From assembly GCA_963205185.1 (NCBI GenBank), contig CAUJHZ010000046.1, forward strand, positions 1-64,000: a stretch of 64,000 bases of DNA, read 5' to 3'. The notes beneath the pieces are model-generated. The model did no database searches, was not told the origin of the DNA, and saw only the letters and a program-made list of their open reading frames with translations. Shown in pieces: positions 24,911 to 39,317 of this stretch (position 1 is the stretch's first letter; each line of letters opens with the position of its first letter). The translations under genes were made by a program, and so were the position numbers. The stretch comes from Planctomycetota bacterium (GTDB lineage: Bacteria; Planctomycetota; Phycisphaerae; Phycisphaerales; UBA5793).

Positions 24911-27019
24911 TTACGCTCCGGCGGGCTGGACGGTGTAGTGGCCGATGCCGGTCGAAGAAGCGATGGGTTCGTGGCGGTCGTGCTCTTCGCCGTAGCGCAC
25001 GAGGCGGAAGGAGTTGGCGATCACGAAGACATCGCCGAATGAGTGGTAGACGGCGGCCCAGAAGATCATGCTGCCGCCCAGCTGTCCGCTGGCGGCAAGC
25101 GTGATGCCGATGATCGCGATGACGATCGAAGCGATGATGTTCTGCGTGATGACCATGCGCGTCTTGCGGGCCAGTTCGAGCAGGAAAGGCAGCCGGTCGA
25201 GATCGTCGTTCATCAGCGCGATGCCGGCGGAGTTGGCTGCGATGTCGGTGCCGCCCAGGCCCATGGCCACGCCGACGTCGGCCGCGGCCAGCGAGGGGCC
25301 GTCGTTGATGCCGTCGCCGACCATCATGACGCGACGGCCGCTGCGGGTGAGTTCAACGATGCGCGCGTGCTTTTCTTCCGGGTGGCACTCGGCCTCGATG
25401 TGGTCGATGCCGACGACCTGTCCGACGCGCTTGGCCACCGGCAGCCGGTCGCCGGTGAACATGCACACGAGGCGCACGCCCAGTTCGCGCAGGCGGGCCA
25501 CGGCGCCGGGCGCCTGCTGGCGGACCTTGTCCTCGAGGCCGACGGCGCCGAGGTACTTGCCGTTGCGCATCACGTGCACGCCGGTCATGCCCTCGATGCG
25601 GCCCTCGACGGCGGCGATCTGCTCACCGATGGACGAGTCGATGCGCTGGAGCCACTTGGCCCGGCCCACGTAGAGCGTCTCGCTGCCCTGCGTGACTTTC
25701 ACGCCCAGGCCGTGCACCTCTTCCGCCTGCCCCTCGCGCGGCGGGGTGATGCGCGCGGCGCGGGCTGTTTCGAGGATCGCCGCGGCCAGCGGGTGATTCG
25801 AATGCTGCTCGGCCGTCGCGGCGGCGGTGAGCAGATCAGCGCCATCCACGCCTTCGGACGGCGCGAGGCGGCTGACCGCGAAGTGGCCGGTCGTGATCGT
25901 GCCGGTCTTGTCGAGCACCACGGTGTCGATGCCTGCAGCCGTATCGAACACGGTCGTGCTCTTGATCATGATTCCTAGGCGGGCGGCGGCGGCGAACGCA
26001 GCCACCATCGCCGTGGGCGACGCCAGCAGCAGCGCGCCCGGGCACGTGACCACGAGCACCGAGATGGCTTTTTCGATTGCGGTCTGCGAGCCGGTCACGT
26101 CGCCGGGCGTGTTGGAGAGAATGAACACCGCCAGGGCCACGAACAGCACGATCCACACGTAGTGGCTGGCGACCAATTCGATGATCTGCTGGCGCGGCGT
26201 CTTGGACTGCTCGGCTTCGTTGATGAGATTGACAACCTTGCCGATGGTCGTGTCTTCGCCGACGCGCGTCACTTCAACGTCGATCACGCCGGTGAGGTTC
26301 GTCGTGCCGGCGTAGACCATCGAACCCATCTCGACTTCGACGGGAGCGGATTCGCCGGTCAGGCTGGCCTGGTTGATCGTCGTGCGGCCGGTGGCGACGC
26401 GGCCGTCGGCGGGGAAGTTCTCGCCGGCGCGGACGCGGATGATCGTGCCGACTTCGAGTTTGTCGAGATCGATCTCGCGCTCGACGTCGTCGATCACCAC
26501 GCGAGCGGTGTCGGGCGTCAGTCCGACGAGCTGTTCGATGGCGCGGTGGGCGCCCCAGGCGGTGCGGCGAAGCACGGCATCCATGAGAAAGAGAATGAAC
26601 GCCAGGCCGCCGGCGACGGCGTACTTGCCCGTGGCCAGGGCGGCGCCGATGGCCAGGGCTACGAGCACCGAACTGCTCGGCCGGCCCTTCTTGATCTCCC
26701 GTCCCGCCGCCATGAGCAGCGGAATCCACAGCAGCACCGCCCCGATCGCGGCGGGTATCACGCGGATTTCGTCATCGAGGCCGAAGAGCCCGGCGATCAC
26801 CGTCGTGAGCACCATCGCCCCGCCGACGAGCGCGAAGACGATCGAACCCTCGGAAGAATTGGTGCTGTGCATTTCGCAGCAACTGGCGTCGTGGATGTGC
26901 TGGTGCTTGTGGCCGGGGCCGCCGTGGCCGTGGCTGTGATCGTGCCCCGCGTGGTCGTGCGCGTGATCATGGGAGTGATCGTGGGGCTGGGAGGCAGGCG
27001 GGGAACCGGCTTGAGACAT
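24911..27019 (-). CDS. P1B-type heavy-metal ATPase with His-rich N-terminus
   Basis: A 702-residue metal-pumping P-type ATPase from ATG 27019 (GGAG upstream). The first 60 residues are dominated by HDHSHDHAHDHAGHDHSHGH-type repeats and then CC, a probable zinc, nickel or cobalt reservoir replacing a ferredoxin-like metal domain. The phosphorylation motif DKTGT (Asp370), TGES, the SNHPLAA loop and GDGINDGPSLAAADVG are intact. The membrane metal motif that is usually CPC, SPC or CPH reads Thr-Cys326-Pro-Gly328 (TCPGALLLASP), so the cargo cannot be inferred from it. Efflux of a divalent metal is most likely. It is followed by an intrinsic terminator and appears monocistronic. Confidence 0.9.
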   Translation of the reverse strand: MSQAGSPPASQPHDHSHDHAHDHAGHDHSHGHGGPGHKHQHIHDASCCEMHSTNSSEGSIVFALVGGAMVLTTVIAGLFGLDDEIRVIPAAIGAVLLWIPLLMAAGREIKKGRPSSSVLVALAIGAALATGKYAVAGGLAFILFLMDAVLRRTAWGAHRAIEQLVGLTPDTARVVIDDVEREIDLDKLEVGTIIRVRAGENFPADGRVATGRTTINQASLTGESAPVEVEMGSMVYAGTTNLTGVIDVEVTRVGEDTTIGKVVNLINEAEQSKTPRQQIIELVASHYVWIVLFVALAVFILSNTPGDVTGSQTAIEKAISVLVVTCPGALLLASPTAMVAAFAAAARLGIMIKSTTVFDTAAGIDTVVLDKTGTITTGHFAVSRLAPSEGVDGADLLTAAATAEQHSNHPLAAAILETARAARITPPREGQAEEVHGLGVKVTQGSETLYVGRAKWLQRIDSSIGEQIAAVEGRIEGMTGVHVMRNGKYLGAVGLEDKVRQQAPGAVARLRELGVRLVCMFTGDRLPVAKRVGQVVGIDHIEAECHPEEKHARIVELTRSGRRVMMVGDGINDGPSLAAADVGVAMGLGGTDIAANSAGIALMNDDLDRLPFLLELARKTRMVITQNIIASIVIAIIGITLAASGQLGGSMIFWAAVYHSFGDVFVIANSFRLVRYGEEHDRHEPIASSTGIGHYTVQPAGA

Positions 27020-27215
27020 CGCAGACTTCTCCAGATGGGCAGCGGCCCGGAGTCGAGGCGGGAACCGTAGGCCCGGCGGCACAGCGAGTCCGGGGGCGAT
27101 CTATCGCGATACGGGCTCGGCAGGCGCCCGGTTCGACGGGATCGGGCAATTCCAGCGCCAGGTCGCGGGCCAGCCGCACGACCGATGCATCGGGGGCGGT
27201 CGCATATCATCGGTC

Positions 27216-27512
27216 ATGCCCACGTACGTCTACCAGGTCATCAACGAAGACGGCAGCGAAGGCGAGGTCTTCGAGGTCTACCAGAAGATGAGCGATCAGC
27301 CGCTGAAGAGGCACCCTGAGACGGGCCGGCCGGTGCGGCGGGTCATCCAGGCCGCCAACATCCCCCTCAAGCACACCGACAAGGCCGAGGCCAAACGCAT
27401 CAGCAACGAGAACCTCGATCGCCTCGGCTTCACGAAGTACGAACGGGCGGGCGGCGGCTTCTACGAAAAGAAAGCCGGCAAGGGGCCGAATGTCATCTCG
27501 GCGGACGATTAG
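27216..27512 (+). CDS. FmdB-family small protein without zinc cysteines
   Basis: 98 residues. The start MPTYVYQVINEDG, the middle FEVYQKMSDQPLKRHPETG and PVRRVI, and the end GFTKYERAGGGFYEKKAGKGP align with the FmdB regulatory-protein family (MPxYEYRCxxCG ... FEVxQKMSDEPL ... CPxCG ... GFTKY). Both C-x2-C pairs of the zinc ribbon are replaced by non-cysteine residues, so the metal-binding function is lost or the fold is zinc-independent. A -10-like TATCAT ends 5 bases before the ATG. It converges on a small secreted protein gene. Confidence 0.82.
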   Translation: MPTYVYQVINEDGSEGEVFEVYQKMSDQPLKRHPETGRPVRRVIQAANIPLKHTDKAEAKRISNENLDRLGFTKYERAGGGFYEKKAGKGPNVISADD

Positions 27513-28059: not shown

Positions 28060-29355
28060 TCAACCCACTTCGCGGGTCTGGAAGAGGATGACGGCCAGCG
28101 AGAGCATGCCCGAGATGTAGAGCAGGCTGTAGAGGCCGACGAGACCGAGGTGCGTGGGCGGGATGAAGTGCCCCTGGTTGAGCGCATCGCCGAACGACAT
28201 CGCCTGCAGATTCGGCGGGACCGACCAGGCGATGCGCCACAGCGAGTGCACCCGCTGCGGACCGTCGATGAGATAGTCATCGATCCGCGGCGGCCGCTCC
28301 ATCGGATCGTCGCCGCGCTTTACGAGATCGGCCGTGTTGTACGACACGCTCTTGAGCACGGCCTGGCCCGGGCCGAGCAGGCCGAAGCCGAGGTTGTCCG
28401 AAGAGAGGTAGACGGGTTCGTCGTCGGTGATGTCGATGCCGCGATCGACGGTGATGTGATACGTGTCGCCGTCATCGCTGAAGTTGTCGTTGTGATCGTC
28501 GATGACGTTGATGGCGAGGATGCGGCCGCGCGACTTGGATTCAAACGCCCGCCGGCCGAAGAGCGTGTCGGTGAGCAGCCCGGCCATGAAGACCACGAGG
28601 CAGACGACCACGGTCATAACCTGCCCGAGGCGCGTCGAGGCGGCCAGCGCCACGGACGCAATGACGAGCAGCGCCAGAAACACGCCGGCGAGCGCCAGGA
28701 CGATTTGCGGATCGAAACTGCCCGAGATCATCCTCATGGTGCCAAACGGCGTCTCCATGGGTTCGAACATCTGGAACTTCCATTCCTTGTCGAACATGAG
28801 AACGCCGATCCAGGCGAGAATCGAGAGCGGCAGCATGGCGCCGACGGCGGTGCTGGTAAAGACCCAGCCATAGAAGAAGTTGCACCAGATGCCAATGAGC
28901 AGCGAGCCGCAGAGGGCGATGAGGCCAAAGACGATCACGGGCATGTCGGCGCTGTCCCGGGCCGTCTGCATGACGCCATAGCGCTTGATGAGCAGAAAGG
29001 TGCAGGACATGATGATGGCGGCGACGACGATGGCCGACGCCACGCCGACGTACTTGCCCAGCACGAATACCGGCCGGCCCACGGGCTTGGAGACCAAAGC
29101 CAGCACCGTCTTGTTCTCGATTTCGCGCGTCACCACGCTCGTGGCCACGAAGGCGGCGATGATCAACCCGCACAGGAAAATCGTCGCCAGGCCCATGTCA
29201 ACCATGAAGAGGTTGTCGTCCGAGAGCGTGAAGGTGCTCAGGCCCGGCGTAATAAGGAGCGCAATGAGCCCGATCCCCAGCATCACAAGGTAGATCGGCT
29301 GGCGGATGCTCTCGAGGAACGTGTTGCGGACGATAGCGAAGAACTGCTGGAACAT
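28060..29355 (-). CDS. ABC-2 type transporter permease
   Basis: A 431-residue permease. Helices lie near residues 18-40, 55-75, 100-122, 140-165, 170-190, 215-240 and 245-262, followed by a soluble region (about 270-395) and a final helix (about 405-425). The ABC-2 coupling segment REIENKTVLALVSKPVGRPVFVLGKYVG matches the equivalent RDKQIFQIASKPLSRFKYLMGKWIG in the permease at 35371-37386, so they are homologues. It is divergent from the SPFH-ABC operon with a 320-base shared spacer. No ATPase is adjacent on this strand, so it may use the one at 34125. Confidence 0.85.
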   Translation of the reverse strand: MFQQFFAIVRNTFLESIRQPIYLVMLGIGLIALLITPGLSTFTLSDDNLFMVDMGLATIFLCGLIIAAFVATSVVTREIENKTVLALVSKPVGRPVFVLGKYVGVASAIVVAAIIMSCTFLLIKRYGVMQTARDSADMPVIVFGLIALCGSLLIGIWCNFFYGWVFTSTAVGAMLPLSILAWIGVLMFDKEWKFQMFEPMETPFGTMRMISGSFDPQIVLALAGVFLALLVIASVALAASTRLGQVMTVVVCLVVFMAGLLTDTLFGRRAFESKSRGRILAINVIDDHNDNFSDDGDTYHITVDRGIDITDDEPVYLSSDNLGFGLLGPGQAVLKSVSYNTADLVKRGDDPMERPPRIDDYLIDGPQRVHSLWRIAWSVPPNLQAMSFGDALNQGHFIPPTHLGLVGLYSLLYISGMLSLAVILFQTREVG

Positions 29356-29675
29356 GAATCCATCCGCGAGGCGGTGACGACCTGGCGCGGGAGCGGCCGG
29401 GGAGACTTGGTACGCCGGCTATCGTAGGCGGGTTTGCCGGAGCGCGAAAAAACCTCGAACTCTCTTCGAACCGGACACAATTCAGGCCCGTAGCCGAGTC
29501 TTTGAGGCTGACGGTGCGATGAGGTCAGGCCCTCGTCGCGGCTTGCGGCGAAACGACCGGCCGCCACTCTTACGTGCGGGCGGTTGCTTGAATTGCAGGC
29601 TTCGGGTATCGTTCGCTCTTTCGACGGGGGACTCTCCCCGACACGTTCGTGCGGGTTCGAGGGCAGCGCCACATC
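29356..29675. other. Divergent promoter region of the SPFH-ABC block
   Basis: 320 bases between the minus-strand permease and the first SPFH gene, with no supportable gene. It contains the promoter-like pair at 29584-29612. I see no long repeat or operator palindrome. Confidence 0.5.
29584..29612 (+). promoter_or_regulatory. Putative promoter of the SPFH-ABC operon (TTGCTT-N17-TATCGT)
   Basis: TTGCTT (29584-29589) and TATCGT (29607-29612) are 17 bases apart, giving a leader of about 55 bases before ATG 29676. Confidence 0.35.
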
Positions 29676-31778
29676 ATGCGAATCAATCACGAGACATACA
29701 GGCGGGCCGCGGTGGCGGCCATCTTCGCCTCCATCTTCCATCTCGTGCTCACCGCGGTTGTCTTCATGCTCGGCTTCGTCCTCAAGGACGACGCCACGCG
29801 CATTGCCGCCTATTCAATGCTGTGCGGCATCCCCGTCTGGGTCGTCCTCATCCTGCTGTTCCACCAGCACCGGCTCGAGCGGCTCGAGTCGCTCGAACAC
29901 GAACAGCTGCGCACGCGCGCCGAAGCCACCGGCAGCATCTTCGACTTCGACGAAAACGAAGTTCCCCAGCACGCCAGCCGCCTGAAGTGGATGCACCGCT
30001 ACCTGGTGCCGGCCTCCAGCCTCGTCATCGCCGCACTGCTCATCGCCATCGGCTGGTGGCAGCGCGGCGTGGTCTCCTCGCGGGGCGACTATGGCGCCGT
30101 GGTTGCCGGCGCGGGCTCAGCGGGTTATGGCGTGGGGATCACGGCGGCCATCGCGCTGGTCTGCTTCGTCGTCTCCTGGTTCCTCGGCGGAATGAGCCGC
30201 CAGCCGTCGTGGCGGCTTCTGCGCGCCGGGGCGACGGTCACCATCGGCGCCGCCCTGCTCAACGCCGCCCTCGCCGTGGGCTACGGCTTCCGACTCAACG
30301 GCAACGAAGACGTCCTGGCCGCACTGGCCTACGTCTTTCCGATCTACATGATCGTCCTCGGCCTCGAGGTGATTATCGCGTTCGTTCTCAACCTCTACAC
30401 GCCGCGCAAGCCGGGCGAATACCCGCAGCCGGCATTCGATTCGCGCGTCCTCGGGTTGCTCGCCGCTCCGGAATCGGTCGTCAAGTCGATCAACGACGCG
30501 ATCAATTACCAGTTCGGCTTCTCCGTCACTTCGACATGGTTCTACCAGTTGCTCAGCCGGCAGATTCTGCCGCTGCTGGGATTTGTCGTGCTGCTCATTG
30601 CCCTGCTGCGGTGCGTGGCGATCGTGCAGCCCGGCGAGCAGGCGATCGTGACGTCGTTCGGCGATCTGCGCCGCGACGGTCACGTGTTCGAATCCGGCGC
30701 GGTCATCAAGTGGCCCTGGGAGCGGCTCGAGCGCTACCCGGTATCGCAGATCCACCAGGTGCTTGTCGGCACGGAGAGCGAAGACGGGCACACGAAACTG
30801 GATGAGCAGGCGCCGATCCTCTGGGACAACGCGCACACGCTGGGCAGGGAAGAACTGATCATCGTCGGCCCGGGGTGGATCGGCTCGGAGCAGGAGACGG
30901 AGAACTCGGGCTTCGGCAATCTGGCGCGGAGCATCGCGGTCGTGAACGCCGAGGTGCCCGTGCAGTTCCGCATCAAGGATGGCCGGGACGCCGACGGAAA
31001 CTCCGAACTGCTCAACTACATCAACTTCGTCGGCGGCGACGTCAGCCAGCGTGAAGCGCTCATCCGCCAGATTGCCACGCGCGTGGTGAATCGCCGGCTC
31101 GCAGGCATGTCGATCGAGCAGGTGCTCGGGCCGAGGCGGGCCGCGCTTTCCGACGACCTTCGCGCGCGAATCCAGGCGGAACTGGACCGGTGGAACTCGG
31201 GCATCCAGGTCGTGTTTGTCGGCGTCGCGGGCATCCACCCGCCCAAGGACGTCGCGGCGAGTTTCGAACAGGTGCTCGAAGCCCGCGAGACGCGGGAATC
31301 GACCATCCAGGATGCGCTGCGCGTCGCCACCGAGCGGCTCGCCAAAGCCGCCGGCTCGGTCGAGCAGGCGCAGGCGATCGCGCGCGAGATCGACAAACTC
31401 CGCAGCATCGGCCTGAGCGACGAGGGCTATGCCGAACAGTCGCTGGTGGTCGAGCGCGTGCTCCTGCAGGCGGGCGGTTCCGCGGCGAGGGAGATTCTCG
31501 AAGCCAAGGCCGACCGCTGGACCACGCAGAACGACAAACTGGCCACGGCCATCCGGCACAACAGCCGTTTGATGCCCTATGAACAGGCGCCGGAGTTGTA
31601 TTCCGTGCGCGAGTATCTCAGCACCCTGCGCCGCGCGCTTCAGGGCCGGCAGCTGGTCATCATCCCCGACGGGGTGCCGGCGCGCACGACCATCGATCTC
31701 AAGCAGGATCCGACGATGATCAACCTCACGGACATCAGCGCTTCCGCGGATGCGGCCGAGAGGTTGCGAAACGAATGA
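29676..31778 (+). CDS. Polytopic membrane protein fused to an SPFH/Band-7 domain (HflK-like)
   Basis: 700 residues. The N-terminal 300 hold five to six hydrophobic segments (about 10-32, 40-60, 110-130, 145-168, 182-202 and 215-240), an architecture not typical of HflK. A further helix (about 290-312) leads into a Band-7 domain (IVQPGEQAIVTSFGDLRRDG ... GAVIKWPWERLERYPV), then a long Ala/Glu/Arg coiled coil (about 515-610). SPFH proteins form large membrane cages around proteases or microdomains. A GTG nine codons upstream is possible, but ATG 29676 has GAGGGC upstream. It heads a six-gene run with two further SPFH genes. Confidence 0.85.
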   Translation: MRINHETYRRAAVAAIFASIFHLVLTAVVFMLGFVLKDDATRIAAYSMLCGIPVWVVLILLFHQHRLERLESLEHEQLRTRAEATGSIFDFDENEVPQHASRLKWMHRYLVPASSLVIAALLIAIGWWQRGVVSSRGDYGAVVAGAGSAGYGVGITAAIALVCFVVSWFLGGMSRQPSWRLLRAGATVTIGAALLNAALAVGYGFRLNGNEDVLAALAYVFPIYMIVLGLEVIIAFVLNLYTPRKPGEYPQPAFDSRVLGLLAAPESVVKSINDAINYQFGFSVTSTWFYQLLSRQILPLLGFVVLLIALLRCVAIVQPGEQAIVTSFGDLRRDGHVFESGAVIKWPWERLERYPVSQIHQVLVGTESEDGHTKLDEQAPILWDNAHTLGREELIIVGPGWIGSEQETENSGFGNLARSIAVVNAEVPVQFRIKDGRDADGNSELLNYINFVGGDVSQREALIRQIATRVVNRRLAGMSIEQVLGPRRAALSDDLRARIQAELDRWNSGIQVVFVGVAGIHPPKDVAASFEQVLEARETRESTIQDALRVATERLAKAAGSVEQAQAIAREIDKLRSIGLSDEGYAEQSLVVERVLLQAGGSAAREILEAKADRWTTQNDKLATAIRHNSRLMPYEQAPELYSVREYLSTLRRALQGRQLVIIPDGVPARTTIDLKQDPTMINLTDISASADAAERLRNE

Positions 31779-31821
31779 CACCGGCCCGCGCCACGTCCCG
31801 GCCGGCGGAGGCTATCGCTCA

Positions 31822-32775
31822 ATGAACCGAATCGCCATGTACGTCATCGCGGCCATAGTCGCCATCACCCTGCTGCTGTTCACCTGCACGTTCCAGGTGC
31901 GCTTCAACCAGACGGCGATCGTGACGACCTTCCGCAAGATCGGCCGCGTGGTCGAGGAGCCCGGCCTGCACTTCAAGTGGCCGTACCCCATCCAGTCCGT
32001 CAAGCATTACGACTCGCGCGTGCGCGTGCTTGAGACGCGGCTCGAGAACGTGATGACCAAGGACAGCCAGCTCGTCATCGCGCAGGTGTTTCTCGCGTGG
32101 AAGATTGAAGATCCGCGGACCTTCTTCCAGGTCATCACTTCCGAGGCGAGCGCGGACAAGCGGCTCAACGAGCGGCTGCGCTCGGCCCTCGGTCTGTTCG
32201 CCGAATACGACTTCCATGACCTTCTCACCAGCGAAACCGGCGAAAGCGGAGCCGGCCAGAGCAACCTGGCTGCGATCGAAAGCCGCATCAAGGAACTGCT
32301 CGAAAACCCTTCGGACCAGGCGGCGGGCGTGGAGTCGGCGTACGGCATCAAGCCGGTGGCCGTGGGCATCAGCCGCTTCATTCTGCCCGAGAACACGAGC
32401 AAAGCGGTTTTCGAGCGGATGAAGAAGACGCGCGAAACGATCGCAGCCGACACCTCCTCATCAGGCCAGGCCGAAGCCGAGCGCATAACGTCCAAGGCTG
32501 AGAGCGATGCGCGAACGATCGAATCGTTCGCACGCGTGCGGGCCGACGCCATTCGCGCTGAAGGTGATCTCGAAGCCGCCGCGCTCGCCGCCCAATTGGC
32601 GCGCAACGAACGCTTTGCGATTCTTCTGCAAAAGCTCCAGGCGCTCGAAGCCATCATCAGCAAGGACACGAAGGTCATCCTGCCCGCTTCGCAGTGGCCC
32701 TTTGACATGCTCATGGGACCCGATGGAATGCCCATCAAGATCGCGGCTCCACAGCGCGCGGAAGGCGGCAACTGA
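31822..32775 (+). CDS. SPFH/Band-7 protein, HflC-like
   Basis: 317 residues, the length of HflC. One N-terminal helix (about 5-23), then the SPFH domain: FNQTAIVTTFRKIGRVVEEP, GLHFKWPYPIQSVKHYDSR, RLENVMTKDSQLVIAQVFLAW. After it comes a helical stretch with AEAERITSKAESDARTIESF and the ending VILPASQWPFDML, close to the HflC C-terminus (ERMKKTRE...). GGCGGAGGC precedes ATG 31822. In E. coli HflC pairs with HflK and FtsH, and here both neighbours are SPFH proteins. No FtsH is encoded in the window. Confidence 0.9.
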   Translation: MNRIAMYVIAAIVAITLLLFTCTFQVRFNQTAIVTTFRKIGRVVEEPGLHFKWPYPIQSVKHYDSRVRVLETRLENVMTKDSQLVIAQVFLAWKIEDPRTFFQVITSEASADKRLNERLRSALGLFAEYDFHDLLTSETGESGAGQSNLAAIESRIKELLENPSDQAAGVESAYGIKPVAVGISRFILPENTSKAVFERMKKTRETIAADTSSSGQAEAERITSKAESDARTIESFARVRADAIRAEGDLEAAALAAQLARNERFAILLQKLQALEAIISKDTKVILPASQWPFDMLMGPDGMPIKIAAPQRAEGGN

Positions 32776-32778
32776 TCC

Positions 32779-34086
32779 ATGGCTGAAGATCAGCACAACC
32801 CGATTCCGCCGGGCGGAGATCCGGGCCCGATCCATCGGCCGGCCCAAGCGGGTCGCCCGTTCGCGCCGACGACGACCGCCGATGATGAGTTCGACCCGGC
32901 CAACCGTTCGCTTGCCAGCGCGCTGCGCATCTCCTTTGTCGCGCTGCAGGTGGTCATGGTCATTCTCGTGGCGATGTACTTCTTCTCCGGGCTGCGCCAG
33001 GTGCCCGAGCAGTCGCGCGGGCTGCGGCTGCTCTTCGGCCGGCTGCAGGACGCGACCCCGCTCGAAGCGGGAGGCTATTTCGTCTGGCCCTATCCGATCG
33101 GCGATTTCATCCTCGTGCCCAGTTCGCAGCAGTCGGTCGAGGTCGATGAGGCCTTCTGGCCCCAACTCAGCGACCTGCAGAAAGCCAAGCCGTTCACGAG
33201 CCTGACCGAGACGGAAAAGTTCACCCTCGTGCCCGGCAAGGACGGGTCGGTCATCACCGCCGACCACAACCTCGCGCACACCAAGTGGAACGTGCAGTAT
33301 CGCATCGTCGACGCCCGCCAGAACCAGGAGACGGTTCCGCTCCTGGAGAACCAGCCCCTGGTTCGCAGCGCTGTCGAACGGGCGGTCGTGCTCGGCGCCG
33401 CCGAAACGACGCTGGACGAGATCATCCAGTCGCGCGACCGGCTCAGCGGCAAGGTGAAGGCGTACGCCCAGGAGTTTCTTGATCGCATTCAATGCGGCAT
33501 CGAAATCTCCACGGCCACCTATGACGCCTACCCGCCGGTGCCCGCGCAGGCCAGTTACGAGCGCGTCAACCAGGCGCACGTCGAATCCGCACAGGGCAAG
33601 GTCGAGGCGGAGCGCCAGGCCAGCGAGATTCTCAACGCGATGGCCGGGCCGGCCCACCAGCGGCTCAGCGCGCTCATCAGCGAGTACGACCAGTTGCTCG
33701 CGCTGGCCAAGGTCGATCCCGACAAGCATGCCGCCGCGGAAGCGAAGCTGCAGGAGATCAACGACCTGCTCTTGAGCGACGCCGTCGGCGGCAAGGTGGC
33801 GACGATCATCGGCACGGCGCGGAGCGATCGCGGCGAACTGGTATCCGGCTTCCGCAGCGACCTGGCCCGCTTCAACGCGTGGATCGACCGCTACGAAGAG
33901 AATCCCAGCCTGGCGACGGCCCTGCTCTGGTCGGAGATGATGGTCAACATCTCGACCAAGGACCTTGAGTGGTTCAGCATCGCGCCCGGCACGACGCAGA
34001 TCGACATCGAAATCAATCCCGATCCCGAGCGGGCCCGGCGCATCAAGAGCGAAGAGTACAAGAAAGCGGGTCGGGCGTCGCCCTGA
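32779..34086 (+). CDS. SPFH/Band-7 protein, HflK-like
   Basis: 435 residues starting 3 bases after the HflC-like gene. A proline-rich cytosolic N-terminus (1-45), as in HflK, precedes one membrane helix (about 52-70) and the Band-7 domain (VPEQSRGLRLLFGRLQDATP, GGYFVWPYPIGDFILVPSSQ, TADHNLAHTKWNVQYRI). The region after it (AAVPAQASYERVNQAH-like, coiled coil about 265-350) again follows HflK. The C-terminal DLEWFSIAPGTTQIDIEINP is not part of classical HflK. GGAAGG precedes the ATG. It is the third consecutive SPFH gene. Confidence 0.88.
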   Translation: MAEDQHNPIPPGGDPGPIHRPAQAGRPFAPTTTADDEFDPANRSLASALRISFVALQVVMVILVAMYFFSGLRQVPEQSRGLRLLFGRLQDATPLEAGGYFVWPYPIGDFILVPSSQQSVEVDEAFWPQLSDLQKAKPFTSLTETEKFTLVPGKDGSVITADHNLAHTKWNVQYRIVDARQNQETVPLLENQPLVRSAVERAVVLGAAETTLDEIIQSRDRLSGKVKAYAQEFLDRIQCGIEISTATYDAYPPVPAQASYERVNQAHVESAQGKVEAERQASEILNAMAGPAHQRLSALISEYDQLLALAKVDPDKHAAAEAKLQEINDLLLSDAVGGKVATIIGTARSDRGELVSGFRSDLARFNAWIDRYEENPSLATALLWSEMMVNISTKDLEWFSIAPGTTQIDIEINPDPERARRIKSEEYKKAGRASP

Positions 34087-34124
34087 CCCGGGGCCGCGCG
34101 TCCCGCGGCGAAAGCGCATTGCAG

Positions 34125-35366
34125 ATGAGTCCTGTCGATTCCACAACTCGAACTCCGGTCGTCCTCGCGCAGGGCCTGACCAAAGTCTTCTCCGACTTCT
34201 GGCTCCGCGCGCAGGTGCGCGCCGTGGACAATCTCGATCTGCGCATCGAGCCGGGGCAGATCTTCGGGCTCATCGGGCCCAACGGCTCGGGCAAGAGCAC
34301 GACGATCAAGATGATCCTCGGCCTGCTGCACAAGACCTCGGGCCGGCTTTCGGTGCTGGGTAAGCAGCCTTCGGACATCGCCGCCAAGAAGCGCATCGGC
34401 TACCTGCCGGAGGAGTCGTACCTCTATCAGTTCCTGAACTCGCGCGAGACGCTGGACTTCTACGCCAAGCTGTTCGGCTACCCGCGGGCCACGCGCCGCC
34501 GCCGCATCGATGAACTGCTCGAGATGGTCGGGCTCGACGCGGTGGCGCATCGCCCCGTCGGCCAGTTCTCCAAGGGCATGCAGCGCCGCGTCGGCATCGC
34601 GCAGGCCCTCATCAACGACCCCGAGTTTCTCATCCTCGACGAACCCACGTCCGGCCTTGATCCTTTGGGCATTCGGCAGGTCAAAGACCTCATCATCGAT
34701 CTGGGCAAGCGCGGCAAGACGATCCTGCTCAGTTCGCACCTGCTCTCCGAGGTCGAAGATGTGTGCGACTCGATGACGATTCTCTACGGCGGCAAGAAGC
34801 GAGCCGAAGGCACGCGCGACGAGCTGCTCACCGCCGACGATCGCACGATCATCGAAACCGAAGCACTCTCGCAGGCCGAGGCGGATGACATCGCCCGGTT
34901 CATCGAGCAGAAGGAAGGCCGGCGCATCATTCGCGTCGCGCCCGCGCGGCAAAGCCTCGAATCGCTGTTCATGTCGATTGTCGAAAAGGCCCAGGCCGAA
35001 CGCGTCAAGACGTCCGGCGCCGGGCGCGGCGGGCCGACTGCGGCGTTCCTGCGCGGCGTCGAGCCTGATTCCGAGCGAAGCGGCGACAAGGTCATCGCCG
35101 ATCTGATGAAAGAACCCGAAGTCCCCGCCACTTCGCGAGCCGAGCGCCCCGCGGCCGATCAATCGCAACAGGCGGACAAGCCGAATCAGTCGGTCCTCGA
35201 CTCGCTCGTGGACAGCGGCCAGGCGCCGGCGGCCCGGCCGGCCGATCGATCCAAGGAGCCGGCGCCGAAGCGAGAGCGCACCGCCGAAGACGTCGATCGC
35301 TCGGTGCTCGACTCGCTGATGGGCGGCTCGCAGGAATCTCCGGGCGACAAGCGCGAGGAGAGGTGA
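34125..35366 (+). CDS. ABC transporter ATP-binding protein with long C-terminal tail
   Basis: 413 residues from ATG 34125. The nucleotide-binding domain (about 12-235) has Walker A GPNGSGKST (51-59), signature FSKGMQRRVG, Walker B LILDEPTSGLDP and the switch His in LLSSHLLSEV. This is the NatA/GldA/CcmA-like branch that drives ABC-2 permeases. A domain of about 80 residues follows, then a disordered Pro/Ala/Glu tail containing two copies of S-V-L-D-S-L (NQSVLDSLVDSGQ and DRSVLDSLMGGSQ), possibly short docking motifs. The next permease begins 4 bases after its stop, which is strong evidence that they work together. Confidence 0.93.
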   Translation: MSPVDSTTRTPVVLAQGLTKVFSDFWLRAQVRAVDNLDLRIEPGQIFGLIGPNGSGKSTTIKMILGLLHKTSGRLSVLGKQPSDIAAKKRIGYLPEESYLYQFLNSRETLDFYAKLFGYPRATRRRRIDELLEMVGLDAVAHRPVGQFSKGMQRRVGIAQALINDPEFLILDEPTSGLDPLGIRQVKDLIIDLGKRGKTILLSSHLLSEVEDVCDSMTILYGGKKRAEGTRDELLTADDRTIIETEALSQAEADDIARFIEQKEGRRIIRVAPARQSLESLFMSIVEKAQAERVKTSGAGRGGPTAAFLRGVEPDSERSGDKVIADLMKEPEVPATSRAERPAADQSQQADKPNQSVLDSLVDSGQAPAARPADRSKEPAPKRERTAEDVDRSVLDSLMGGSQESPGDKREER

Positions 35367-35370
35367 TCGC

Positions 35371-37386
35371 ATGATCGACCGTCTCTTCGAGATGCTCTCG
35401 CGCCTGAATCGGCTCCAGCAGGGCCTGCGGTTCAAGATCGTGGCGACGGCGCTGGGCCTGATCGCGGTGACCGTCGTGGCCATCCTGGCCGCGCGCACGA
35501 ATCTCGCCTGGATGCCCGAGACGCTGTCGAGCAACCTCGTGAGCAGCGCCGTGATCGGCGCCCTGGCGGTGGTCGGCGTCATCTGGCTGGGCCGCACGCT
35601 TTCCGCTGCGGGTATTGCCGTCGTCGCGCTGCCGTTCTGGTTCGTGTTTCGAATGCTGGACATGGAACTCTGGGCCCAGATCGCACTGGGCATCGGATCG
35701 CTGAGCATTCTCTTCCTGGTGCTCATTCAGGTCGCCCGGCTCCTGCTCTCGGCCCCGATCGGCCCGCTGGCGGTCGCGCGATTCGTGCTCGATGAAGCGG
35801 TGCGGATGAAGCTCGCGCTCGTCTTCATCGTCCTGCTCATCATCTACATTCCTTTCCTCGCCACCCAGCTCGACACGCACGAGCGGCTGCAGTATCGCGT
35901 GCAGACGTTCCTGAGTTACGGCACGGGAGTGAGCTACGCGCTGCTGGCCGTCATGACGGTCTTCCTTTCCACGGCGACGGTGGCATTCGAGCAGCGCGAC
36001 AAGCAGATCTTCCAGATCGCCAGCAAGCCGCTGAGCCGTTTCAAGTACCTCATGGGCAAGTGGATTGGCCTGGCGGTGCTGAACGGCCTGCTGCTGCTCA
36101 TGACCGGCGGAGCCATCTTCTGGTTCACCCAGTACCTGCGCACCCAGCCGGGCATGGACGCCTACGACGAGATGGCCGTCACCGAGCAGGTGCTCACCTC
36201 GCGCATCGGCGTGCGGCCGACGGTGCCGGATTTCCGCGAAGAAGCCAAGGCGCGCGCAGCCCAGCGGGCGGCAGAAGATCCTGAACTCAAGGACAACCCC
36301 ACCGCCATCGCGAATCTCGCCAACGAGATGCTCAGCGAACTCCAGTCGCAGATGCTCTCGATCCCGCCCGGCGAATACCGCGAGTACCTCTTCGAGAACG
36401 TCACGCCGATCTCGCGGAGCTTCAAGACCACCGTTCACTTCGACGGTGAGCCGATCGTGGTGCCCTCGCGCATTCAGTCGCCGTTTGACTTGATGGTCAG
36501 GAGCGAAGACGGCGAGACTTTCTACGTTCCCCAGACGCCGTCCCAGCCCGGCCAGTTCCAGCTCGGCTTCGCGGAGGACGCCACGCTCATTCGCTTCATC
36601 CCTCCCGATTCGCAGCAGACGTTTCCGAATCCGCTGCGCGAGGGCCAGACGGTGCGCATCGAGTACTACCCGGAGAACGCGCTGACGCTTCGCTACAAGC
36701 TGAACTCGGGCCAGGACATGCCCGATGTCTCGGTGCCGATCACGATCTGGCTGGAAGGCAACGTCATCATGCCGCAGGAAGCGGTTCTCGTGCAGACGCA
36801 GAACGTGATGATCCCGGCAGGATTCGTGAACGACGATCACACCCTGAGCGTGCGCATCGCCAACGGAAACATGAACACAGGGCAGGTGTACGGCGAGACG
36901 ATCACCATCCCGTGGGATGGCCTCGAGATCATGTACAAGGTCGATACGTTCGAGGCGAACTACTTCCGCGCCATGCTCATTGTCTGGCTCAAACTGGGCT
37001 TCCTCGCCATGCTCGGCATTGCCGCCGCGACGTTCGCGAGTTTCCCGGTGGCGTGCCTGCTGGCGTTCACGATCTTTTTCGGCGCCGAATCGGCGCCATT
37101 CCTGGCCGCGTCGCTGGAGAACTTCGACAAGGTCGATCCCGTAACGAAAGAGCGGTACTACTTCAACACGATCATCTGGGAGATCGCCTCGGCGATGCAG
37201 TGGCTGCTGCGGCAATACGGCAGCGTGCGACCGACGCAGAATCTCATCGAGGGCCGCAACGTTTCGTGGGCGGTGGTGTCGCAGACGTTCATTTGGATCT
37301 CGGTATTGTGGACCGGGCTCACGGCCTTCATCGGATGGGTGATCTTCCGGGCCCGGCAACTGGCTATCTACTCGGGGCACGCATGA
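35371..37386 (+). CDS. ABC-2 permease with large non-membrane domain
   Basis: 671 residues. About seven hydrophobic segments occupy residues 18-250, ending with the ABC-2 coupling segment EQRDKQIFQIASKPLSRFKYLMGKWIG and two further helices. Residues about 255-525 are soluble and probably extracytoplasmic, beta-rich (TVHFDGEPIVVPSRIQSPFDL ... WLEGNVIMPQEAVLVQTQNVMIP). Helices near 535-565, 570-590 and 640-660 close the protein. GAGGAGAGG precedes the ATG, 4 bases after the ATPase stop. Its own stop overlaps the next start as ATGA. The cargo is unknown. The architecture resembles gliding/Nos-type ABC-2 systems more than drug exporters. Confidence 0.88.
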   Translation: MIDRLFEMLSRLNRLQQGLRFKIVATALGLIAVTVVAILAARTNLAWMPETLSSNLVSSAVIGALAVVGVIWLGRTLSAAGIAVVALPFWFVFRMLDMELWAQIALGIGSLSILFLVLIQVARLLLSAPIGPLAVARFVLDEAVRMKLALVFIVLLIIYIPFLATQLDTHERLQYRVQTFLSYGTGVSYALLAVMTVFLSTATVAFEQRDKQIFQIASKPLSRFKYLMGKWIGLAVLNGLLLLMTGGAIFWFTQYLRTQPGMDAYDEMAVTEQVLTSRIGVRPTVPDFREEAKARAAQRAAEDPELKDNPTAIANLANEMLSELQSQMLSIPPGEYREYLFENVTPISRSFKTTVHFDGEPIVVPSRIQSPFDLMVRSEDGETFYVPQTPSQPGQFQLGFAEDATLIRFIPPDSQQTFPNPLREGQTVRIEYYPENALTLRYKLNSGQDMPDVSVPITIWLEGNVIMPQEAVLVQTQNVMIPAGFVNDDHTLSVRIANGNMNTGQVYGETITIPWDGLEIMYKVDTFEANYFRAMLIVWLKLGFLAMLGIAAATFASFPVACLLAFTIFFGAESAPFLAASLENFDKVDPVTKERYYFNTIIWEIASAMQWLLRQYGSVRPTQNLIEGRNVSWAVVSQTFIWISVLWTGLTAFIGWVIFRARQLAIYSGHA

Positions 37387-39317
37387 GACGCGACCGCTGG
37401 ATTCAGATCATCGCCGGCGTGGTGATGCTCGCCTCACTGCTGGGCGCGGGCTGGCTCATGCCCGCTATCAACGCCTCGGCGTCTGATGCGCAGTTGAAGT
37501 ACACCGACGAAGCCGCGGCGGGCGCGCCGGCGCCGGTGGTGGTGGCGCAGAGCATCGGAGTGGTGCGCGGCATCATCGCCAACTACCTCTGGATCCGCGC
37601 CGACAAGCTCAAGGAAGACGGCAAGTTCTTCGAGGCCTACCAGCTCAGCCGGTGGATCACCCAGCTCCAGCCGCGCTACGCCTCGGTCTGGCAGTTCCAG
37701 GCGTGGAACATGGCCTACAACATCTCGGTGGCCACGCACACGCCGCAGGAGCGCTGGCAGTGGGTGCGCGATGGGATTCAACTGCTGCGCGATTCGGGCA
37801 TCCGCTACAACCCGAGCGAGATGATGCTCTATCGCGAGCTGGCGTGGTTCTTCCTGCACAAGATCGCCGGCAACACCGACGACGCGAACAAGTATTACAA
37901 ACAGCAACTCGCCGACGAGTGGCAGGGGCTGCTCAGCGAGCCGCCGTATTCGTTTGAGGGCCGCAAGGCGGCGATCAAGACCATCGCCGATGCCCCCGAG
38001 CGCTGGGATCGCGTGGTGGAGCTGCAGCCGGCCGCGGCGTCGCTGCTCAAGGATCTCTACGCAGCCGGATTCGAACTTGACGAGCGCCTGCTCCGCACGA
38101 TCGAATCGACGCGGTCACTGGTTTCGAGCCCCGTCGCCAAGGCTTCGGGCATGGCCGAGCAGTTCGCGCAGGTGACCGACGCCAGCCGACTCTCGCCGCA
38201 GGGTCTGGCGGTGCGCCAACTGCAGCCGGCGCTGACCAACGAGGCCTACAAGGACGCCTGGCCGCTGGTCATCGCCTACACGCGCAAGCGGATCCTCAAA
38301 GACGTCTACAACATGGACCCCGGCTACATGCTGCAGTTCATGGAGGAGTTCGGCCCGCTCGACTGGCGCTCTCCCTCGGCGCATTCGCTCTACTGGGCCG
38401 CCGTCGGCGTCGAACGCGGCCTGACGCGCCGCGAGCAGAACAAGTTCGACCGCGTCAACACCGACCGCATCCTGTTTCACTCCGAGCAGTCGCTCAAGCG
38501 CGCCGGGCGCATCTTCTACGATTTTGTCTCCAAGGAAATCTCCTACGGCCCGGACCTGCGATTCGTGCCCTACTACGAGCACACCTACGTGCTGATGAAC
38601 CAGCGGCTCATCGACGAATGGGGCATCGGCACGCCGGCGACGTTCATCGACGGCTATCGCAACTTCCTCATCGACAGCGTGCGCGAAGCGTACATGTTCG
38701 GCGATCACGAGCGGGCCCAGGAGATCTACTCCCGGCTGCGCAATGATGAGAAGTTCTTCCAGCCCGAACATCCGGACCGGTTCGAGGCGCCGCTGGAATC
38801 GTTCATCATGAACGAGACGGCTGACCGCTGGTCGTCGATCACCGTCGCCACCAACGACTGCATCGCGCTGCTCACCTCCGCATTCCGCTTCGGCCTGGGC
38901 CGCGGCGACCAGCAGACGTTCAATCGCAACATCCGCATGGCTCGGGCGATCTATGACTACTTCTACCGCGAAGTGGGCAACCGCGAGACCGTGCTCACGC
39001 CCGGCGAAGGACGCCTCTCGTTTGAATGGGATGCGATGATGCTTCAGGCCTTTCAGATGGTCATGACCGACGGCATCTCAACGATGGGCGAGCGCATGGC
39101 GGTCTGGGAGCGGGCGGACGACAGTCTGAAGCTCAAGGTCTACGACAGCATCCTCACCGCCCTGCAGGACAACTTCGAGCGAAGCGGCCTGACGGACCGG
39201 ATGACCCTCGACCAGGCCTTCCCGCCGCCCGAAGGGCTCGAAGCCTACCGCCTGCAGAAGCAGCAGGAAGCCCAGAGCCAGCCTCAGGGCCCGACGCTTC
39301 CCATCGAGCGCAAATAA
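37383..39317 (+). CDS. Membrane-anchored helical (TPR-like) protein of the SPFH-ABC operon
   Basis: 644 residues, starting within the ATGA overlap with the permease gene. One N-terminal helix (about 8-28) anchors an all-helical, Trp/Tyr-rich domain. Segments such as IIANYLWIRADKLKEDGKFFEAYQLSRWITQLQPRYASVWQFQAWNMAYN and LYRELAWFFLHKIAGNTDDANKYYK look like degenerate tetratricopeptide repeats. No catalytic motif is visible. It would face the extracytoplasmic side if the helix is a signal anchor. The tight coupling to the permease suggests an accessory or substrate-handling subunit. I recall no characterised homologue. Confidence 0.75.
   Translation: MRRDRWIQIIAGVVMLASLLGAGWLMPAINASASDAQLKYTDEAAAGAPAPVVVAQSIGVVRGIIANYLWIRADKLKEDGKFFEAYQLSRWITQLQPRYASVWQFQAWNMAYNISVATHTPQERWQWVRDGIQLLRDSGIRYNPSEMMLYRELAWFFLHKIAGNTDDANKYYKQQLADEWQGLLSEPPYSFEGRKAAIKTIADAPERWDRVVELQPAAASLLKDLYAAGFELDERLLRTIESTRSLVSSPVAKASGMAEQFAQVTDASRLSPQGLAVRQLQPALTNEAYKDAWPLVIAYTRKRILKDVYNMDPGYMLQFMEEFGPLDWRSPSAHSLYWAAVGVERGLTRREQNKFDRVNTDRILFHSEQSLKRAGRIFYDFVSKEISYGPDLRFVPYYEHTYVLMNQRLIDEWGIGTPATFIDGYRNFLIDSVREAYMFGDHERAQEIYSRLRNDEKFFQPEHPDRFEAPLESFIMNETADRWSSITVATNDCIALLTSAFRFGLGRGDQQTFNRNIRMARAIYDYFYREVGNRETVLTPGEGRLSFEWDAMMLQAFQMVMTDGISTMGERMAVWERADDSLKLKVYDSILTALQDNFERSGLTDRMTLDQAFPPPEGLEAYRLQKQQEAQSQPQGPTLPIERK

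Follow-up and report, generated by a model that had tools for sequence, protein, structure and literature searches.

We lean towards reading the P1B ATPase encoded in the window (the whole stretch of 64,000 nucleotides that was analysed) as an exporter of a divalent borderline-soft metal, most likely Zn2+, whose membrane site would have been rebuilt from Cys-Cys-His to Cys-His-Asp. Co2+, Fe2+ and Cd2+ are the alternative cargoes. Specificity is plausibly affected by a change that the first-pass annotation of this DNA did not mention, an acidic residue in helix M6, D663, four residues past the His of that helix. By sequence group and by its neighbours, the pump belongs to a planctomycete SPFH-cassette P1B family, a grouping made here.

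The pump and its host

Translation of 24911-27019 on the reverse strand gives a 702-aa frame without interruption. The ATG at 27019 is preceded by GGAG, and an alternative GTG start of the same frame lies at 27082. The features of the gene are as follows.

24911..27019 (-), P1B ATPase, 702 aa, ATG start, stop codon included (translation, profiles, model)
26849..27019 (-), His-rich N-terminal tail (residues 1-57 with 15 His), disorder predicted from pLDDT
26876..26881 (-), CC motif, residues 47-48 (CCEMH; relatives often have CC(S/A)HH) (alignment)
26579..26581 (-), D147 of helix M2, which precedes by three residues the position (150) of a Glu in two-Cys relatives
26036..26044 (-), C326-P327-G328, metal motif of helix M4 without the third Cys (alignment)
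25898..25912 (-), DKTGT phosphorylation motif, D370 (alignment)
25043..25045 (-), H659 in helix M6, aligned with the His of the P1B-4 HEGST motif and with the M6 Asp of ZntA
25031..25033 (-), D663 in helix M6, four residues past H659 (alignment)

The P1B identity proposed in the first-pass annotation holds. The pump scores 516 bits against the heavy-metal P-type family TIGR01525 (cut-off 346); it is also above the cut-off of the Cd family (TIGR01512, 415 bits, cut-off 313.5) and under that of the Cu family (TIGR01511, 373 bits, cut-off 397). Pfam detected the E1-E2_ATPase and Hydrolase families and nothing else, and an HMA domain was not found at E <= 0.001. The AF2 model has a mean pLDDT of 84.7, with residues 1-53 below 50 and predicted to be disordered, and compares with the solved P1B pumps 7r0g, 4bbj, 7qbz and 4umv at Z of 28-32. 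The alignment behind the structure prediction held 56 sequences, not all rows, and excluded L097, whose sequence as cut is interrupted by a stop at residue 28, before the membrane region begins, and which was retained in the motif counts. By profile, fold and catalytic motifs, the protein is a member of the P1B family.

More than ten His had been reported in the first 60 residues; we counted 15 of the pump's 29 His there (hypergeometric P about 5e-10). The CC said to follow this segment is present, at residues 47-48 and thus inside it. The Cys-Pro-Gly at Cys326 was correctly read and lies in M4.

The host is a planctomycete of the Phycisphaerales type, with an assembly of 76 contigs and 4.55 Mb. 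All but one of the 21 named relatives (20/21) are titled Phycisphaerales, Phycisphaerae or other Planctomycetota. The exception, L009 (WYBR01000111.1), is titled Vicinamibacteraceae, and because its gene is 87% identical to that of the window, the record is probably a mislabelled planctomycete bin. Four other P-type matches of the host were classed by motif as a copper-type CPC pump, an SPC/HEGGT pump of the P1B-4 type (L002/L195), a CPH paralogue (L003) and a CcoI-like CPC pump; a ZntA-like M6 was not seen among these four. A sixth P-type ATPase match in the host (L005, G000:C41:29358-29933) was not reached by the pump query and lies outside the alignment.

Distribution and phylogenetic placement

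With 298 genomes of the class sampled, a homologue close enough to rank with the window clade was identified in every one of the 49 genomes in families f1, f2 and f3 (counted by hand from the table), with E of 2.8e-204 or better in 48 of them. In the remaining genome, G036, the gene is split over two contigs and enters no motif count. One genome of family f4 (G008) also has a window-clade homologue. No plasmid-borne close relative was found among the 40 matches listed of at least 5000, and all 40 are below 37% identity.

Using ZntA, CopA, three pumps of pMOL30 and the host's own paralogues as references, we recovered a family of 125 rows (SH-aLRT 97) and within it the 67-row window clade (SH-aLRT 100), in a quick tree with long reference branches whose deep order is uncertain. 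The pMOL30 pumps RMET_RS30580, RMET_RS30150 and RMET_RS30255 are presumably CopF, CzcP and PbrA, respectively. They come from two stretches of the plasmid, and two further stretches contained no P1B pump. Phylogenetic placement among the P1B subgroups had been proposed as a check, with a position inside a characterised subgroup that uses CPG for a known metal as the contrary outcome; the pump groups with none of the P1B-1, P1B-2, CPH-type and P1B-4 references, and no such position was found among these. The earlier view that it stands outside the known classes is thus borne out with respect to these references, while a class defined by Gly is not.

We distrusted the branching that made the CPC members together the sister group of the window clade, the stem being long (0.66 changes per column). 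Ordinary descent of the clade is favoured because the conserved genes around the pump correspond between the window genus and CPC relatives of the same class. In the larger tree, the main family and the P1B-2/P1B-4 group are joined at a support of only 56, and f3 is set against the other clade members at a support of 41, so that loss of the acid in f3 and its never having been present both fit.

Variation of the M4 motif and of M2

Duplicate sequences were merged ahead of each count; as cut, one stop lies near the end of L001 and two near the start of L218. Within the clade (n=67) the M4 motifs are CPG (25), CPS (20), CPA (9), VPA (6), CPT (4), APS (1), CPV (1) and TPG (1). The third position is never Cys, and 8 of the 67 have neither motif Cys. 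The non-clade members of the family (n=58) have CPC (47), CPS (6), CPG (2), TPC (1), CPL (1) and CPM (1). Gly is therefore one of several Cys replacements. The proposal that Gly marks a new metal class was ruled out, as S, A, G, T or V stands there in the clade, and for the same reason the third motif residue is read as simply "not Cys".

CPG is also found in L078, L007, L079, L008 and L080 (same family, 70-98% identity) and in L081 from a sister family; a sequencing or assembly error as its source was ruled out, since the motif recurs across several assemblies. Among the literature matches listed for CPG or for CPS, CPT or CPA motifs, there was no report of a CPG P1B pump; a CPS motif is mentioned in print. 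The His-rich N-terminus is not specific to CPG, as 18 of the 58 non-clade family members have at least five His and all 18 are CPC pumps.

The catalytic motifs TGE, HP and GDG(I/V)ND are intact in 125/125 family rows, and DKTGT in 124, the last row having DKSGT. At position 150 of M2, Glu is present in 48/48 family rows with the third Cys versus 3/77 without it, and in 67/67 two-Cys rows of the larger set described below. Since this Glu is gone throughout the 67-row clade, the site appears to have been altered at more than one place. Two further pumps (L209 and L218) have CACP in place of CPC, with the Pro one residue past the second Cys.

An acidic residue in M6

The 42 clade rows with the M6 His all have an acid at 663 (Asp in 32, Glu in 10); 34 of them have the CC and 37 at least five N-terminal His. 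The other 25 clade rows have Gln (20) or Tyr (5) at position 659, and in these the acid at 663, the CC and the five-His tail are each absent (0/25). Judging from the alignment, the acid, the CC and the His tail co-occur with the M6 His as if parts of one machine.

Among the family rows that keep the third Cys, His659 is present in 48/48 and an acid at 663 in one TPC row only. We extended the comparison to a larger set of 161 rows, namely those with His, Gln or Tyr at 659 (proteins below 600 aa excluded). There the acid occurs in 52 rows, and 52/52 lack at least one motif Cys. It was detected in none of the 65 rows with CPC and His (S in 43, V in 10, A in 7, T in 3, G in 1 and I in 1), and position 663 is not acidic in the two CAC rows. 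Family f73, with matches in 5/7 genomes, has E663 in both TPC pumps found (one genus) and Ser in its three CPC pumps. D663 was also found in L235, a second-copy CPS pump.

Seven pumps (L230, L231 and L237-L241) have a GAC motif, in which the first Cys and the Pro are replaced, together with HxxSE in M6 and E663 in all seven. They come from a few planctomycete families and apparently form a separate group; the GAC and TPC pumps retain E150 of M2. L234, a P1B-like pump that is the second copy in G429, has YPD for CPC and HLFD in M6, thus no motif Cys and two Asp.

The reading that we favour would run as follows. The ancestral-type site, as in the relatives, would comprise CPC in M4 and a His in M6. 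The third motif Cys would have been lost, here to Gly, and the acid at 663 would take part in its place, so that a carboxylate would replace a thiolate and the His and two negatively charged ligands would be preserved. The His-rich tail and the CC would gather cytosolic metal and pass it to C326, H659 and D663; ATP would phosphorylate D370, and the E1-E2 cycle would release the ion outward. We infer the binding of metal by these three residues, the identity of the metal, the direction of export and the role of the tail from the sequence.

When descent is allowed for, the link between the acid and the loss of a motif Cys appears modest. Parsimony reconstruction gave only four gains of the acid, 4/4 on Cys-lacking branches (56% of the tree length; P about 0.10), and 2/4 on the very branch of Cys loss (P about 0.01); the same reconstruction also infers Cys regains, which are considered doubtful. 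An independent-pairs test of the link was not significant (p 0.25-1).

The weakness of these tests fits another explanation, which we judge unlikely though the most serious of the rivals: that the third Cys was dispensable and drifted, that D663 is structural, and that the cargo is that of the CPC relatives (probably Zn2+/Cd2+), held by one Cys and the His. The mix of S, A, G, T and V in the clade would be expected under such drift. Rows with a motif Cys missing and a non-acidic residue at 663 number 42, of which 27 are His-less and the others are 6 CPS, 5 SPC (of the P1B-4 type, in which Glu is at His+1), 2 CPM, 1 CPL and 1 YPD; the persistence of the CPS, CPM and CPL pumps, which have the His and no acid, counts for drift and against a ligand swap. 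The same can be said of L115, a clade member with APS, which has no motif Cys yet retains the M6 His and Asp (it has no CC and two N-terminal His). Drift is harder to reconcile with the strict division of the clade, in which D/E663 accompanies the His in 42/42 and is missing from 25/25 His-less members, with the restriction of the acid, across separate lineages, to pumps that lack a motif Cys, and with the additional loss of E150, which suggests a rebuilt pathway.

Comparison with known P1B classes

The signature of P1B-1 (Cu+) is CPC in M4, YN in M5 and MxxSS in M6 (PMC4932525); the window pump has CPG and HSFGD (HxxxD), is under the TIGR01511 cut-off and falls outside the CopA group. P1B-2 (Zn2+/Cd2+/Pb2+) has CPC, N(x)7K in M5 and DxG(x)7N in M6 (PMC6305203). 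The window pump has CPG, Ala at the M5 Lys position and His at the M6 Asp position. It resembles the P1B-2 pumps E. coli ZntA and C. metallidurans RMET_RS30255 in scoring above the TIGR01512 cut-off and in that position 659 aligns with the ZntA Asp (D714), and differs from them in having no third Cys and no M5 Lys, in the M6 His for Asp and in that no HMA domain was found. CPG also separates it from P1B-3-type pumps, which have CPH in M4.

The best PDB sequence match of the pump is the P1B-4 protein sCoaT (7QBZ, 282 bits). P1B-4 pumps (sCoaT; RMET_RS30150) share with it the position of the M6 His, a single motif Cys and a carboxylate in M6; they differ in having SPC rather than CPx and HEGxT rather than HxxxD (in the window pump, CPG and HSFGD), and group with P1B-2 on the trees, apart from the window family. 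In a P1B-4 structure the M6 His is sandwiched by the SPC residues (PMC8880997). By analogy, P1B-4 may reach a similar ligand set by another route.

Compared by published motifs, the closest characterised parallel appears to be CtpG, a zinc exporter of Mycobacterium bovis BCG with APC and HEFTE motifs; zinc is its strongest activator, and change of APC to APA or deletion of APC seriously affects activity and zinc efflux (PMC9045314). Both pumps have one M4 Cys, and in our own reading of HEFTE the Glu at His+4 has the spacing of H659 and D663, so that the His and the acid at His+4 are shared. CtpG differs from the window pump (CPG and HSFGD) in keeping the third motif Cys and not the first, in a second Glu at His+1 and in coming from another phylum. 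From the P1B-4 and CtpG parallels we predict a Zn2+-like cargo; the new ion specificity suggested at first pass thus gives way to an ordinary divalent ion as the likeliest cargo.

Membership in one of the named subgroups P1B-5, P1B-6 or P1B-7, in which case the pump would not be new, seems improbable to us. The tree references span only P1B-1, P1B-2, CPH-type and P1B-4, which leaves room for it, and P1B-6 and P1B-7 were known by sequence and biochemically unexamined as of 2016 (PMC4932525; substrates of the three subgroups are given in Table 4 of PMC7558416). It is made less attractive by the separation of the family from all of those references and by the lack of any CPG pump among the literature matches listed.

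The direct relatives of the window pump are the CPC+His cassette pumps of Planctomycetota (L118, L131, L164 and others), at about 43-44% identity, with which the window genus shares the cassette described below. They differ from it in having CPC, Ser663 and Glu at M2 position 150.

A ligand-poor branch

The 25 His-less clade members have kept TGE, DKTGT, HP and GDGIND in 25/25, and seven of them have lost both motif Cys as well (6 VPA, 1 TPG). The six VPA pumps (L105, L106, L107, L108, L109 and L050) have Gln and Val in M6, so that metal ligands are not recognisable there, and lack a His tail. Pairwise dN/dS (NG86) was 0.09-0.33 for the VPA pumps (five pairs) and 0.03-0.15 for the f3 pumps (four pairs). 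Because these values are low across the nine pairs, the His-less pumps tested appear to be maintained under purifying selection.

A tentative interpretation of the sequences, which we hold with less conviction than the Zn2+-like export proposed above, is that one largely vertical family runs from Cys-Cys-His pumps through the Cys-His-Asp type of the window to ligand-free, tail-less P1B-derived ATPases that would no longer move heavy metals. The ligand-poor members with intact catalytic motifs and dN/dS of 0.03-0.33 could also mean that the whole clade is abandoning metal transport for another ion or a non-transport role, with CPG as an early step, but this is quite improbable for the window pump, which retains the Cys and also the His, Asp, CC and 15-His tail, the four that are jointly absent in the other set, and looks like the metal-competent half.

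The SPFH/ABC cassette

The neighbouring genes of the window that belong to the cassette are as follows.

28060..29355 (-), ABC-2 permease-like cassette gene
29649..31778 (+), SPFH/Band 7 protein a
31750..32775 (+), SPFH/Band 7 protein b
32779..34086 (+), SPFH/Band 7 protein c
33969..35366 (+), ABC transporter ATPase, open frame, true start probably further in
35371..37386 (+), ABC-2-type permease, open frame, Pfam match under cut-off
36912..39317 (+), last cassette gene, open frame, no Pfam family found

Considering loci longer than 9 kb, with neighbour genes called by codon-position GC, we found at least two SPFH genes near the pump in 35 of 48 non-clade loci, and in 29 of these 35 an ABC ATPase too. 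The common order is an ABC permease (sometimes divergent), three SPFH genes, the pump, an ABC ATPase, an ABC permease and the last gene; besides the window, cassette loci include L118, L131, L164, L165 and L176. The window retains the cassette genes at 28060-39317, and its pump has been displaced to one side of them. Among the 53 other clade loci, at least two SPFH genes are nearby in only three (L078, L007 and L008), all from the window genus or its nearest kin. An SPFH relative was identified in 41/41 genomes searched, the window's own included, with an identity of only 32-43% in f2 and f3, which suggests that the pump left the cassette in these two families. Many f2 and f3 relatives adjoin a gpsA-like gene (named by eye). 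The pump gene of the window seems to derive from a cassette of planctomycetes that comprises three SPFH proteins and ABC genes.

A small zinc-ribbon protein, which we take to be FmdB-like, is encoded divergently from the pump at 27216-27512 (29.5 bits to Zn_ribbon_8, for which the Pfam cut-off is 34.4), and zinc-ribbon matches were also found near the pump in L078, L007 and L193. Among the conserved neighbours, inspected by eye and, for those of the window alone, with Pfam, no metal regulator or chaperone was recognised.

The cassette looks like a scaffolded membrane complex. A partial analogy is offered by the PacL-CtpC metal efflux platforms, in which a P1B pump is also encoded with a membrane scaffold protein and whose foci do not require flotillin (PMC9374683); by our own reading, PacL is not an SPFH protein. 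Among the literature matches listed, we found no paper on an association of P1B pumps with an SPFH/ABC cassette, and the word ATPase is absent from the main text of a survey of prokaryotic SPFH proteins (PMC2636767).

Significance

It has long been asked which residues determine metal choice in P1B pumps, and classification by motif relies heavily on M4. The present family suggests a testable rule, namely that an acid four residues past the M6 His can substitute for an absent motif Cys. The family also links P1B pumps with an SPFH/ABC membrane cassette, on which the literature matches listed included no report. Its related genes further provide natural intermediates and an end state free of ligands; if the tentative descent from Cys-Cys-His through Cys-His-Asp to ligand-free ATPases is true, the family would be a natural series of how the specificity of a P-type pump is rewritten.
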